A stretch of 64,000 bases of DNA. It comes from Nocardiaceae bacterium (lineage in GTDB: Bacteria > Actinomycetota > Actinomycetes > Mycobacteriales > Mycobacteriaceae). Below, one piece after another: positions 7,657 to 11,728 of the stretch (position 1 is the first letter of the stretch; each line of letters opens with the position of its first letter). The translations under genes and the position numbers were made by a program. The stretch lies in the NCBI GenBank assembly GCA_021372355.1, contig JAJFUQ010000146.1:1-64000 (forward strand), read 5' to 3'. A model generated the notes under the pieces. It was given only the letters and a program-made list of their open reading frames with translations. It was not told the origin of the DNA and did not search any database.

Positions 7657-8292
7657 TCACTCCGTCGCTGACATGTTCGGCGAGAGCAAGACAGACGCAA
7701 TCGTGGTTCGCGCGAGTCGTGCGACGGCGCTGGGATCACTCACGTCGATGATCAGACTCGGGCTGATCAGGTAGCCGATCATCAGGTGAATCAAGACGTC
7801 GGCCTGCGCGTCGGGATCGCCAGGTGGAATTCTTCCCGCTTTCTGCGCTTTTGCGATGTTCGTACGGACGGCTGAGTGCCCGACCTGCAGCGCCGACGGA
7901 TCGCCATGTCCTAGGGCATGGATGAGGTCAGCACGATGGCTTTCGTCGGTGCCGAACAGAATGTCCTCGCGCAGGCGCATACAGGTCTGAAAAGCGACGA
8001 TGCACTGGTCCGTGGGGTCGGTGACGACCGTGAAGCTCTCGGCGAGAGCAGTGAGAAGCTGCCTGATCGCGCGCACCAGTGCCTGCTCGAACAGTTGGTC
8101 CTTACCGCCGTACCGACGGAACAGCGTCGTGCGGCCGACGCCGGATTCGGCAGCGATGTCGTCCATCGTCGCCTCGCGCGTTCCCTTGTGCGCAAGCACT
8201 CGCAATGCGGCGTCGAGAACTTGGGATTCCTTGGTGTTCGTGGCGTCGACGTCAAGGGCTTGGCCGACTGCTCGCTGCAGCAGCGTCGGCAT
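7657..8292 (-). CDS. TetR-family transcriptional regulator
   Basis: 211-residue repressor-type protein. An N-terminal helix-turn-helix (about residues 25-65) contains VLAHKGTREATMDDIAAES and GVGRTTLFRRYGGKDQLFEQAL, the standard TetR pattern. The C-terminal ligand domain is helical and unspecific. ATG 8292 is preferred; a GTG at 8313 would add a few residues. The reading frame extends far upstream to 9957, but that part is only the mirror of the fusion gene. It is divergent from the acyl-CoA fusion gene, and a perfect 10-bp inverted repeat (8330-8355) lies between them. It most likely represses that gene and itself. The ligand may be an acyl-CoA, but this is inferred only from context. Confidence 0.9.
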   Translation of the reverse strand: MPTLLQRAVGQALDVDATNTKESQVLDAALRVLAHKGTREATMDDIAAESGVGRTTLFRRYGGKDQLFEQALVRAIRQLLTALAESFTVVTDPTDQCIVAFQTCMRLREDILFGTDESHRADLIHALGHGDPSALQVGHSAVRTNIAKAQKAGRIPPGDPDAQADVLIHLMIGYLISPSLIIDVSDPSAVARLARTTIASVLLSPNMSATE

Positions 8293-8322
8293 CGGAGCGC
8301 CCGGTCGTGTCACCTTCCAATC

Positions 8323-8351
8323 TTGACACGGAACTATTACGCGGTTAATAG
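8323..8351 (+). promoter_or_regulatory. Sigma70-type promoter of the acyl-CoA fusion gene
   Basis: A consensus -35 TTGACA (8323-8328) is followed after 17 bases by TAATAG (8346-8351) as a -10-like hexamer. Expected initiation is near 8358. The ribosome site GAGGAG is at 8368-8373. The -10 and the whole spacer lie inside the palindromic operator. Confidence 0.6.
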
Positions 8352-8355
8352 TTCC
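8330..8355. promoter_or_regulatory. Perfect palindromic operator, probable TetR-binding site
   Basis: Arms GGAACTATTA (8330-8339) and TAATAGTTCC (8346-8355) are exact reverse complements separated by six bases (CGCGGT). The AT-rich arms stand out in this GC-rich DNA. The site lies between divergent genes and covers the promoter spacer and -10, as expected for steric repression by the adjacent TetR protein. Confidence 0.75.
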
Positions 8356-8379
8356 AGTAACTTCGGTGAGGAGCTTGCG

Positions 8380-11313
8380 ATGACACCCAGGCCGATTCGA
8401 ATCATTCGCGCGCAGCTGAGGAGCGCTCGGCAGTTCGCCGAGGCGGTTCGTCGGGACCCGCGAATACTCCGCGAAATCGGAGCCGAATTGATGGGCCGGA
8501 AGCACACCGGTCCGGCTCCGGTTCCGGGTTCGGCTGCCGCACCGCCAGAATTGGACGGCTTCGACCGGCAGACTCGGGCCAGCGTTCACCTCGCTGCCGG
8601 GCCCAAAACCGTCGCGGCCTTTGTGAGCGACCTTGGTCGTCTGCCGGACTGGTTGACGGTCCATGCCGGATTCCGGGGCGAGCCACCCGTGGCGGCATAT
8701 CCGGGTCTCGAGTTCATCCAGCAGGCCAAGCTCATGGGAATTCCTGCCGATGTCGCGTGGACTGTCGTTTCGGTCGGCGACGCGGGAGTCGAGATGCGCG
8801 GCAGCGGGCCGATGGGTCTCACGCTGGGGTTCTGGCTGGTCGTCGAGCCTGACGCCCCGGGAGAGTCGACGTTGTCGGTGTTTGTCGGGCTTGCGGGTCA
8901 GCCCGTGGCGGGCCCGCTCGGAGCATCGCTGCTGCGCAGTTTCACCGAAAGTCTCGAGGAGTCGCTTGAGCGGCTCTCGGTGGCCGTCGGGTCGTCGGAC
9001 GGCGCGAAAGCAACTTCGCGTCAGCCGGTTCTGCACGAAGCCACCGGAACCATGCTGCCGCCGAACACCCCGGTCCTCGTCGGCGTCGGGCAAGTCGTCG
9101 ACAGGATGCCGAATCCGGCACGCGATCCGGCGGCAATGGCCGCCCAAGCTCTTCGACAAGCGGCTCGCGACTGCGGTGCCGGTGAGGCGATGCTCCGGTC
9201 CGCCGATGCGGTGTTCGCGGTTGCTTCCGCGTCTTGGCAGTACCGCGATCTCGGTGCGGCCGTCGCTGCTGCGTTGGGTGCAGCGCCCGCCGAAACAGTG
9301 CAATCCGTGCCCTTCGGAGGGGACGCCGGACAAGTGCTCGTGAACGAGGCGGCAGAGTCGGTCGCCACCGGGAAGCACCGAATCGTGCTGGTGGCAGGTG
9401 CCGAAGCGGGTGCCACGCTGGCCAGCCACCCCACGTTGTCCTGGCCCGGGCAGCCGTCGACCGTTCGTCCGACTCGAGTCGTCGGCGTGGACAAGCCGGG
9501 CAACAACGACTCGGAAACCGCGGTCGGACTCGGGGCTCCGATCTATCTCTTCGCGCTCATGGACTCGGCGAATCGCCGCCGCCTCGGTCTGCCGCCGCGC
9601 GAGCATGCGTACGCCAACGCGGCGCTGTGGTCGACGTTGTCGACGATTGCGGCGCAGAACCCGTATGCATGGCAGCCGCAGGAATTCGACGCGGATTCGC
9701 TCCTCGACGTCTCCGACGGCAACCGCATGATCACGTCGCCGTACACCAAGCTGCTGTGCGCGAATTTGCAGGTGGACATGGCCAGCGGTGTCATCGTCTG
9801 CAGCGCGGCAGCGGCGCAGGAGGCGGGAATTCCGCAGGACAAATGGGTCTTCATTCACGCTGGAGCGTCGGCGCACGACGAATGGTTCGCGACCGAGCGC
9901 GCCGATTTGGCGGCGTCTCCGGCGATCCGGACGATCGGCAGGTCTGCGCTCGATCATGCGGGCCTGAGCATCGACGACATCGATGAAGTCGACTTCTACT
10001 CGTGCTTCCCGTCCGCCGTCCAGATCGCGGCGCGCGAGTTAGGGCTGCCGATCAACGATCCTTCTCGACCCTTGTCGGTGACGGGTGGGTTGACGTTCGG
10101 CGGTGGCCCGGGCAACAACTTCGCTGGTCACTCGATATCGACGATGGTCGAGCGACTGCGCAGCCGTCCGGAGTCGTACGGTCTGACGACGTCGCTTGGC
10201 TGGTACCTCACCAAGCACTCGATCGGGGTGTACTCGGCCAAACCGCCGGCGAAGCCATATCAGTACCTCAAGCCGTTCGTCGATCACCCGCCGTCGCGAC
10301 CGGTACGTACCACCTATCGCGGGTCTGCGGTGATCGATGCGTACACCGTGCCGTACGGCCGTGATGGAGAACCGGAAGCGGCGATCGTCAGCGCGATCGC
10401 ACCGGACGGGTCCCGCGTACTCGTGCGCGTCAAGGCACCCGATGTCATCAGTGAACTCCTCGATGACGACGCATTGGGTCTTCCGGTCATGGTGGAAGGG
10501 GATGCCGTCACCATCACCAGTCGCGATCGAACCGATCTGCCTGCGCCACCTGAACCGCCGGTTCTCGTGGAACGTCGTGGACCGGTCATGGTGATCACGT
10601 TGAACCGGCCCGAGGTTCGCAATGCCGTCAACCTCGCCATGGCGACGGCCCTCGAACGAGCCATCGACAGTTTCGAAGCTGACCCCATGGCGCAGGTTGC
10701 GATCCTCACTGGCGCCGGCGGCTACTTCAGCGCGGGCATGGATCTTAAAGCCGCTGCGCGCGGAGAGGTTCCGATGACGGAGCGGCGCGGACCGCTCGGC
10801 CTTGCGGGACGGCCGCCGCGGAAACCGCTCATTGCGGCCGTCGAGGGTCCAGCGCTCGCTGGCGGCTGTGAACTGGCACTCTCGGCTGACCTCATCGTCG
10901 CCGCTTCGAATTCCCAGTTCGGAATTCCGGAACCGAAGCGCGGACTCGTCGCAGCCGGCGGCGGTGTTTATCGGTTGCGAGAGCGACTGCCCCGAAACAT
11001 CGCTATGCAGCTCGCCCTCACCGGCGATCCGATGCCGGCGGCGGCACTGGCTTCGTATGGGCTGGTCAACGAAGTGACCGAACCCGGCCAGGCGCTTGCC
11101 GGGGCTCTGCGGCTGGCCGAACAGATCGCGGTCAATGCACCCCTGAGCTTGCTCGCGAGCAAACAAATCATCGACGAGAGCAGCGATTGGTCGACCGGAG
11201 AAGCGTTCGCGCGGCAGAACGACATCGCGTCTCAGGCGTTGTTCTCGGCCGATGCGACAGAAGGGATCATGGCCTTCGCGGAGAAGCGGGCGCCCGTGTG
11301 GACCGGTCGCTGA
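8380..11313 (+). CDS. SRPBCC / thiolase-like (TLP1-type) / crotonase three-domain fusion
   Basis: One uninterrupted 977-residue frame. Residues about 50-200 resemble an SRPBCC lipid-binding domain (ASVHLAAGPKTVAAFVSDL). About 230-640 is a thiolase-superfamily domain with GGPGNNFAGHSI; the usual nucleophilic cysteine region reads VQSVPFGGDAG, without cysteine. About 640-720 matches the extra C-terminal domain of thiolase-like protein type 1. About 726-977 is a crotonase domain retaining both acid/base glutamates (E831 in GGCELAL, E851 in GIPEPKRG). The ATG at 8380 has GAGGAG six bases upstream. Likely cytosolic acyl-CoA or lipid chemistry with the hydratase part active and the thiolase part non-classical; the substrate is unknown. 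Control by the adjacent TetR is inferred. Confidence 0.88.
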   Translation: MTPRPIRIIRAQLRSARQFAEAVRRDPRILREIGAELMGRKHTGPAPVPGSAAAPPELDGFDRQTRASVHLAAGPKTVAAFVSDLGRLPDWLTVHAGFRGEPPVAAYPGLEFIQQAKLMGIPADVAWTVVSVGDAGVEMRGSGPMGLTLGFWLVVEPDAPGESTLSVFVGLAGQPVAGPLGASLLRSFTESLEESLERLSVAVGSSDGAKATSRQPVLHEATGTMLPPNTPVLVGVGQVVDRMPNPARDPAAMAAQALRQAARDCGAGEAMLRSADAVFAVASASWQYRDLGAAVAAALGAAPAETVQSVPFGGDAGQVLVNEAAESVATGKHRIVLVAGAEAGATLASHPTLSWPGQPSTVRPTRVVGVDKPGNNDSETAVGLGAPIYLFALMDSANRRRLGLPPREHAYANAALWSTLSTIAAQNPYAWQPQEFDADSLLDVSDGNRMITSPYTKLLCANLQVDMASGVIVCSAAAAQEAGIPQDKWVFIHAGASAHDEWFATERADLAASPAIRTIGRSALDHAGLSIDDIDEVDFYSCFPSAVQIAARELGLPINDPSRPLSVTGGLTFGGGPGNNFAGHSISTMVERLRSRPESYGLTTSLGWYLTKHSIGVYSAKPPAKPYQYLKPFVDHPPSRPVRTTYRGSAVIDAYTVPYGRDGEPEAAIVSAIAPDGSRVLVRVKAPDVISELLDDDALGLPVMVEGDAVTITSRDRTDLPAPPEPPVLVERRGPVMVITLNRPEVRNAVNLAMATALERAIDSFEADPMAQVAILTGAGGYFSAGMDLKAAARGEVPMTERRGPLGLAGRPPRKPLIAAVEGPALAGGCELALSADLIVAASNSQFGIPEPKRGLVAAGGGVYRLRERLPRNIAMQLALTGDPMPAAALASYGLVNEVTEPGQALAGALRLAEQIAVNAPLSLLASKQIIDESSDWSTGEAFARQNDIASQALFSADATEGIMAFAEKRAPVWTGR

Positions 11314-11332
11314 GGGGGCGCCGCGGCCCCGG

Positions 11333-11728
11333 TCATTCACCGCTGAGCGTCTCCAGCGCTTTCGCCAACCGCGCGGCCGCTTGTTCCGCGACAGGCTTCA
11401 AGCCTGGTGCGGAGGTGACCTCTGCGAGCAGTAGCGGGTTCATGGCCTCGACGAGCACTCGGCCCGAATCAAGAGCACGTACCACCACGTTGCAGGGCAG
11501 CAGCACTCCGACCTGCCGGTTCGCACTCAAAGCCTGGTAGGCCAGCGGCGGGTTGCACGCCCCAAGGATGAGGTAGTCCTCGATGTCGTGACCGAGCTTG
11601 GCTTTGATCGTGGTTTTCATGTCGATCTCGGTGAGGACTCCGAATCCCTGTTCGGCCAGTGCTGCCCTGGTACGAGCCACCGTGTCTTCGAACGGGGCTG
11701 TGACGGTCGTCGTCAACGCAAGTTCCAT
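11333..11728 (-). CDS. DUF302 family protein
   Basis: 131-residue cytosolic protein of the DUF302 family: an N-terminal ELALTTTVTAPFEDTVARTRAALAEQ, the central ILGACNPPLAYQAL and LLPCNVVVRAL (the two family cysteine motifs), then a helical tail. DUF302 folds are small alpha/beta domains of uncertain function. The ATG at 11728 is preceded by GGAGGGAA. Convergent with the fusion gene, 19 bases apart. Confidence 0.85.
   Translation of the reverse strand: MELALTTTVTAPFEDTVARTRAALAEQGFGVLTEIDMKTTIKAKLGHDIEDYLILGACNPPLAYQALSANRQVGVLLPCNVVVRALDSGRVLVEAMNPLLLAEVTSAPGLKPVAEQAAARLAKALETLSGE

Follow-up and report, generated by a model that had tools for sequence, protein, structure and literature searches.

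Introduction

The closest described counterparts of the gene analysed here couple an enoyl-coenzyme A (CoA) hydratase to a thiolase-fold unit with a glycine near the former nucleophile site, as in the steroid side-chain hydratase-aldolase complexes ChsH1/ChsH2-Ltp2 and Shy-Sal. The gene was located at positions 8380-11313 on the forward strand of a 64,000-nucleotide stretch of a Nocardiaceae bacterium genome (assembly GCA_021372355.1, contig JAJFUQ010000146.1, positions 1 to 64,000; hereafter the window), and it encoded a fusion of an SRPBCC domain, a thiolase-like TLP1 domain and a crotonase domain. A thiolase or a hydratase is likewise joined to a lipid-carrier domain in the eukaryotic SCPx and MFE-2 proteins; unlike our fusion, these have an SCP2 carrier, a thiolase with an active-site cysteine and a different domain set.

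The nearest relatives of the individual domains have been described. The thiolase-fold motifs HDCF, YDCF, YDHF (TcLtp2) and YDCY (Y302-D-C304-Y in CtSal) were placed as equivalents, retro-aldol cleavage by CtSal needed both Tyr302 and Cys304, and the backbone of a glycine (Gly89 in CtSal and its equivalent in TcLtp2) touched the substrate hydroxyl (PMC12329534). In MsTLP1 (PDB 4egv), a glycine replaced the nucleophilic cysteine of thiolases, YSCF replaced NEAF, GGL replaced GHP, and an extra six-stranded barrel was present; this protein had neither thiolase activity nor the thiolase catalytic residues (PMC3406046). Finally, MSMEG_5634, a relative of Rv0910, bound acyl-AcpM (C36-52) in a manner that required Trp30, and it is reported not to inhibit the growth of M. 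smegmatis (PMC9014085).

Judging from sequence comparisons, we propose, with a probability of roughly 0.42, that the window protein would combine a hydratase and a retro-aldolase acting on CoA esters in one chain, preceded by an acyl-chain-binding domain of the Rv0910 type.

An intact three-domain chain

The frame was open over 977 amino acids and encoded a single chain. The first-pass annotation of the window had read it as three domains that are usually separate proteins. Its domain content was borne out by Pfam, NCBIfam and PDB matches, and a search for PF18313, PF00378 and SRPBCC recovered all three. The ATG at 8380, preceded by a Shine-Dalgarno-like GAGGAG (8368-8373, forward strand), was also the start used by the orthologue from Smaragdicoccus niigatensis, which was 90% identical over 975 aligned codons. 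A longer frame starting at 7918 was unlikely since the extension would be antisense to the divergent TetR gene described below and since S. niigatensis shared the ATG at 8380.

Between these two species, the ratio of nonsynonymous to synonymous substitution rates (dN/dS) was 0.12 for the whole chain and 0.51 for its N-terminal 60 residues. By domain, it was 0.17 for SRPBCC, 0.10 for TLP1, 0.20 for the extra domain of TLP1 and 0.05 for the crotonase, so that on this two-species comparison each domain was under purifying selection.

We surveyed a family sample of 401 genomes (E <= 1e-150), an order-wide sample of 397 genomes overlapping the first (1e-120) and a phylum-wide sample of 396 genomes (1e-110); our own labels for genomes and loci begin with G and L, respectively. 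Matches in the family sample came from 42/401 genomes and comprised 34 three-domain chains, one SRPBCC-TLP1 protein without a crotonase (G026) and seven matches to TLP1 only. Among the 34, one (G360, L068) had an in-frame TAG, and another (G320) first matched only from residue 270, its SRPBCC region being aligned later. In the order-wide sample (22/397), ten three-domain chains, four TLP1-only matches and eight two-domain TLP1-crotonase proteins were found; three of these three-domain chains belonged to family f14, one of them from Thermocrispum agreste. The phylum-wide sample (6/396) returned two three-domain chains and one TLP1-only match already counted, one two-domain protein (G037) and two TLP1-only matches from outside the order. 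Of the 18 relatives found by a scan of named genomes, six were full length, namely those of S. niigatensis, T. agreste and four species of Nocardia. The genus of the window genome was represented by one other sampled genome, S. niigatensis DSM 44881. Among 72,556 plasmid records, there were 17 matches at 1e-60, none of which covered 80% of the chain.

These results bear on the possibility, raised by the first-pass annotation as a potential refutation, that a frameshift or an assembly error had fused separate genes. Related genomes did hold split forms, as such an artefact would suggest. However, the frame was uninterrupted in 33/401 family genomes, with one more carrying the in-frame stop, it was also present in named Nocardia and Thermocrispum records, and each of its domains was under purifying selection. 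An artefact was thus left with a practically negligible probability, and because of the genome survey together with the low dN/dS of each domain, chance and artefact were both ruled out as origins of the fusion frame.

Two further suggestions of the first-pass annotation fared less well. Separate expression of the domains from internal starts was not supported, since residue 225 was Met in 6/39 three-domain rows and residue 736 in 0/39, and no common start was seen among the TLP1 and crotonase boundary sequences displayed. The idea that the architecture might be a common annotated family held insofar as the family was conserved, but none of the NCBIfam and Pfam models seen covered the whole three-domain chain.

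The TLP1 domain

The thiolase-like domain occupied residues 226-629 (9055-10266, forward strand) and was followed by an extra C-terminal domain at residues 630-708 (10267-10503), which was matched by TLP1_add_C (PF18313; 1.9e-12, 47.4 bits against a cut-off of 26.1) and corresponded to the six-stranded barrel described in PMC3406046. Residues 226-709 were assigned to the TLP1 family: NF006103 scored 436.8 bits, below its cut-off of 757, and none of the four PRK08257 models was matched by the window copy at or above its cut-off. Pfam matches to the thiolase C-terminal domain were sub-threshold in this region. The closest solved structure was 4egv, matching residues 219-705 (about 480 residues) at 4.1e-69. 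Structure predictions had low confidence, with a mean predicted local distance difference test (pLDDT) of 64.1 (TLP1 being the worst part) and 63.9 (8 sequences); the predicted fold matched 4egv (Foldseek 1.6e-30), and the models were not used for residue geometry. The window domain had in common with MsTLP1 the thiolase fold, a glycine in place of the nucleophile, the motifs YSCF and GGL, and the extra barrel, whereas MsTLP1 is a stand-alone protein with neither SRPBCC nor crotonase attached.

Conservation was assessed over 58 TLP1 rows (39 three-domain, 10 two-domain, 4 operon and 5 stand-alone), among which species may recur; the copy with the in-frame stop (L068), the duplicates L001, L002, L004 and L079, and loci added later were excluded from the count. 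In agreement with the first-pass annotation, the nucleophilic cysteine that marks the N-terminal half of canonical thiolases was missing: its site, identified from PMC3406046, was taken by Gly313-Gly314 (9316-9321), and glycine stood there in 58/58 rows. Asp538, Tyr540, Cys542, Phe543, Asn579, Asn580, His584 and Lys612 were likewise invariant in 58/58 rows, while position 541 was Ser or Ala. The Y540-S541-C542-F543 motif (9997-10008) is our candidate for an aldolase acid/base pair. In a profile built from 20 TLP1 domains, YSCF aligned with the HDCF of SCP2-type thiolases, and the same profile matched TcLtp2 (6ok1) at 4e-6. Because HDCF was in turn equated with the CtSal motif in PMC12329534, this alignment places Tyr540 and Cys542 at the position of the acid-base pair of a thiolase-fold aldolase. 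Since the invariant Y-x-C-F motif resembles those of thiolase-fold aldolases, the thiolase-like unit was probably not a dead carrier.

The opposite view, close to that of the first-pass annotation, would be that TLP1 binds CoA as a scaffold or carrier without any catalysis, and that the crotonase is the sole enzyme, with its acyl-CoA delivered by the SRPBCC domain. The absent nucleophile, the lack of thiolase activity and of thiolase catalytic residues in MsTLP1 (PMC3406046) and the crotonase dN/dS, the lowest of the three domains (0.05), agreed with such a role. On the other hand, a polar block that included Tyr540 and Cys542 was invariant in 58/58 domains, which would be unexpected for a dead scaffold, and other loci kept TLP1 without a crotonase. 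We regarded a pure scaffold as unlikely.

The crotonase and SRPBCC domains

The crotonase domain spanned residues 727-977 (10558-11310, forward strand). ECH_1 (PF00378) matched residues 734-976 at 1.1e-49, and the curated enoyl-CoA hydratase subfamily model NF006100 was passed with 356.6 bits against a cut-off of 282; EchA1-type crotonases were the closest solved structures for this part. The two catalytic glutamates that the first-pass annotation had pointed out, Glu831 (10870-10872) and Glu851 (10930-10932), were at exactly those positions and were kept in 39/39 three-domain rows as well as in 10/10 two-domain fused rows.

Crotonases of the feruloyl-CoA hydratase-lyase type catalyse both hydration and cleavage in one site, so the crotonase domain might itself be a hydratase-lyase with TLP1 only assisting. 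We considered this very unlikely since the domain fell into NF006100, a general enoyl-CoA hydratase subfamily, and since the invariant TLP1 residues would be left unexplained.

The SRPBCC/START domain comprised residues ~61-205 (8560-8994, forward strand), with Polyketide_cyc2/SRPBCC (PF10604) matching residues 65-199 at 1.5e-7. Its sole NCBIfam match was NF047960, the Rv0910 family, at 94.9 bits and thus just below the cut-off of 100; the copies from S. niigatensis (101.5) and G026 (L120; 131.7) scored above it. Trp91 (8650-8652), present in 38/39 three-domain rows, fell on NF047960 profile position 30, an equivalence with Trp30 that was read from equal spans in the profile match. The lipid-binding domain suspected by the first-pass annotation could be specified as probably of the Rv0910 type, for which acyl-AcpM binding in mycobacteria is described in PMC9014085. 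The window domain shared with Rv0910/MSMEG_5634 the Trp at profile position 30 and a match to the family model NF047960, in its case just short of the cut-off. It differed in that MSMEG_5634 is a single-domain acyl-AcpM binder, while here the domain was fused ahead of TLP1.

We noted that the family name of NF047960, "type II toxin", was a poor fit both with a fusion to acyl-CoA enzymes and with PMC9014085. A positional link between Rv0910-type genes and TLP1 in mycobacteria, which would be separated by a few genes in M. tuberculosis, was dropped, as coordinates in the sampled genomes gave no adjacency. In both genomes of the window's genus, a lipid-transfer/SCP2-type thiolase gene was followed by an Rv0910-type SRPBCC gene (L129, 8059-12350; L130, about 8764-11326). 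The row in L129 continued with a HadAB/MaoC-like gene, a short-chain dehydrogenase/reductase (SDR) and a crotonase, forming a split set that echoed the fusion domains.

Repeated linkage of TLP1 and crotonase

As the first-pass annotation had assumed, the parts of the chain also occurred as separate proteins, in operon-type and in stand-alone TLP1 loci. In four operon-type loci (L085-L088, genus g22, 4/4 with flanking DNA), TLP1 was immediately followed by a crotonase gene; this TLP1 was 50-51% and its crotonase 61-63% identical to the fused domains. The two genes also existed as overlapping neighbours, and separate adjacent TLP1 and crotonase genes were found in records of Nocardia farcinica, Methylobacterium aquaticum and Sinorhizobium fredii. 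Two-domain TLP1-crotonase proteins occurred in family f14, in a few members of family f1 and in Novosphingobium. They resembled our chain in that TLP1 precedes the crotonase in one polypeptide, and differed from it by lacking SRPBCC and by belonging to another TLP1 subfamily (NF006105), another crotonase branch and a separate joining event.

In the TLP1 tree, whose deep branches were weak, the three-domain, SRPBCC-TLP1 and operon rows formed one group (support 96 in the Shimodaira-Hasegawa-like approximate likelihood ratio test, SH-aLRT) and the two-domain rows stood apart. In the crotonase tree, the three-domain and operon rows were grouped (98), while the two-domain rows stood with stand-alone crotonases. 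A single old joining was rejected: one clade of all fused and operon crotonases had a p-value of 0.0014 in the approximately unbiased test (p-AU), which is only a guide as the tested group was framed after an earlier tree, and the TLP1 tree agreed. Since both trees separated the two fusion types, TLP1 gained a crotonase partner at least twice.

Three stand-alone TLP1 genes (L135-L137) adjoined CoA-transferase, alcohol dehydrogenase or succinyl-CoA-ligase-like genes. A Methylobacterium plasmid (L178, 5734-10547) carried TLP1, a crotonase, an SDR, an ordinary thiolase-domain protein and an oligonucleotide/oligosaccharide-binding (OB)-fold protein in one row. A 6.3-kb contig of the window assembly (G000:C136; L132, 1-5390) was 99.93% identical over 5,390 bp to L136, which came from another genus of the family; this was probably assembly contamination, or otherwise a very recent transfer.

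TLP1 might instead run another cysteine-free reaction of CoA thioesters in series with the crotonase, such as decarboxylation, retro-Claisen hydrolysis or carbon-carbon condensation. TLP1 did adjoin CoA transferases and lie near an ordinary thiolase gene, and slow decarboxylation of malonyl-CoA is described for TbSLP, a thiolase-like protein whose motif is YDCF (PMC12329534). However, the repeated pairing with a hydratase best fitted a beta-hydroxy substrate, and we judged these reactions quite improbable.

Proposed reaction and points against it

If the window protein is a hydratase-aldolase, the SRPBCC pocket would hold an acyl-CoA by its long hydrophobic portion, and the crotonase would hydrate the 2-enoyl-CoA form of this acyl-CoA. 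The product, a beta-hydroxyacyl-CoA, would then undergo retro-aldol cleavage by TLP1, which has no acyl-accepting cysteine, giving an aldehyde or ketone and an acyl-CoA of shorter chain, for example acetyl- or propionyl-CoA. Tyr540 would act as base towards the hydroxyl and Cys542 as acid towards the enolate, and the extra barrel of TLP1 may take the role that DUF35, an OB-fold domain, has in complex with Ltp2 and Sal.

On this reading, the fusion would work like Ltp2 and Sal, with which it shared, besides the coupling to a hydratase, Tyr (and in Sal also Cys) in the same motif and an OB-like domain joined to the thiolase fold. It did not belong to that group, as it had neither the zinc finger nor a MaoC partner. 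The known systems are made of separate proteins, lack SRPBCC, act on a known substrate and use a MaoC hydratase, which bears a DUF35 domain with a zinc finger. Channelling within the fusion, as suggested by the first-pass annotation, should not be assumed because CtShy-CtSal, the nearest characterised analogue, leaks 93% of its intermediate (PMC12329534).

Several observations weigh against a hydratase-aldolase. The TLP1 family has no known activity, and the work on MsTLP1 established no more than that it is not a thiolase. Ser or Ala replaced the Asp of YDCY in the TLP1 rows. Among the active-site residues of CtSal, which also include Gln161, Gln347, Gln352 and Gly391, the alignment covered the Tyr302/Cys304 motif. 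Residues 630-708 contained no cysteine and thus no DUF35-type zinc finger, and the hydratase was a crotonase rather than a MaoC protein. The motif cysteine was common to true SCP2-type thiolases and may therefore be ancestral. Eight stand-alone TLP1 loci (L005, L007, L039, L098, L100 and L135-L137) had no crotonase detected in the available flanking DNA, L005 and L007 being on short contigs and L136 being nearly identical to L007, with one copy of this pair in a suspect contig. Since the Methylobacterium row also contained genes for an ordinary thiolase and for an OB-fold protein, the chain might be shortened by a protein other than TLP1. Finally, the genes around the fusion varied widely, and the counts of nearby genes are raw counts.

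A dedicated regulator and other neighbouring genes

A TetR-family regulator (7657-8313, reverse strand; TetR_N 1.5e-14 on 7657-8244) was divergent from the fusion gene, its GTG start at 8313 being set by N-terminal likeness to orthologues. An orthologue was divergent in 8/27 loci examined, with its matched end 135-196 bp upstream of the fusion gene; other TetR genes were divergent in L107 and L114. Between the two window genes was a putative 26-bp palindromic operator, GGAACTATTACGCGGTTAATAGTTCC (8330-8355), a likely TetR site. Allowing up to 3 mismatches, the palindrome was found in 6/8 genomes searched, only upstream of the fusion gene and either single or in tandem, and a backward control gave 0. 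In the two genomes without it (G202 and G041), no TetR orthologue was seen beside the fusion gene. The TetR-bearing loci L106 and L113, which were outside the pattern search, had related but different sequences at the same place. As for a wider regulon, no further operator sites occurred in the six operator-bearing genomes, and the regulator with its operator reads as a one-gene regulon. A possible -35 box, TTGACA (8323-8328), and a weak -10 candidate, TAATAG (8346-8351), both on the forward strand, suggested a promoter. TetR would repress the fusion gene and switch it on upon arrival of a ligand.

Directly 3' of the fusion gene was a convergent 131-amino-acid frame (11333-11728, reverse strand). 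Elsewhere, neighbours included an acyl-CoA dehydrogenase (L034, L101), and an acyl-CoA synthetase with an SDR (L101). L115 had an aldehyde dehydrogenase and a further crotonase, L119 had AtuA together with a carboxyltransferase, and L120 had a meta-cleavage aldolase set. A flavin monooxygenase (cluster c2) was present in 7/27 loci, either adjacent or at distances of up to about 7 kb. At several Nocardia loci, neighbour cluster c1 was the core gene mshC; the names of c1, c6 (acyl-CoA dehydrogenase) and c30 (acyl-CoA synthetase) were read from the sequences rather than from a family search, and part of the neighbourhood calls came from a simple gene finder rather than from annotation. This neighbourhood fits catabolism of branched or terpenoid acyl-CoAs and fixes no substrate.

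Implications

The component domains were known. For the three-domain chain, its dedicated TetR switch and the two separate gains of a crotonase by TLP1, no report was found in the open-licence literature, where no paper on the fusion was recognisable from its title or the opening of its abstract. Fusion in ten sampled genera, together with pairing of the parts as separate genes, predicts a working partnership. The fusion also ties the Rv0910 family, labelled as a toxin, to acyl-CoA chemistry.

A broader and somewhat doubtful possibility is that the whole TLP1 family consists of CoA-dependent aldolases often paired with a crotonase. The window protein would then be the most integrated form, one chain with an acyl-chain-binding domain and a one-gene TetR switch, and since C36-52 acyl chains are bound by a relative of its SRPBCC domain, its substrates may be beta-hydroxy lipids that are very long or resemble mycolates. 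Should TLP1 prove to be an aldolase, a family of actinobacteria and proteobacteria would be misnamed as acetyl-CoA acetyltransferase, and the single chain would offer a handle on how hydratase and aldolase are coupled and on substrate hand-over, which was not seen with the separate CtShy-CtSal proteins. The dedicated TetR regulator and its operator would provide a direct route to the substrate through inducer screening.

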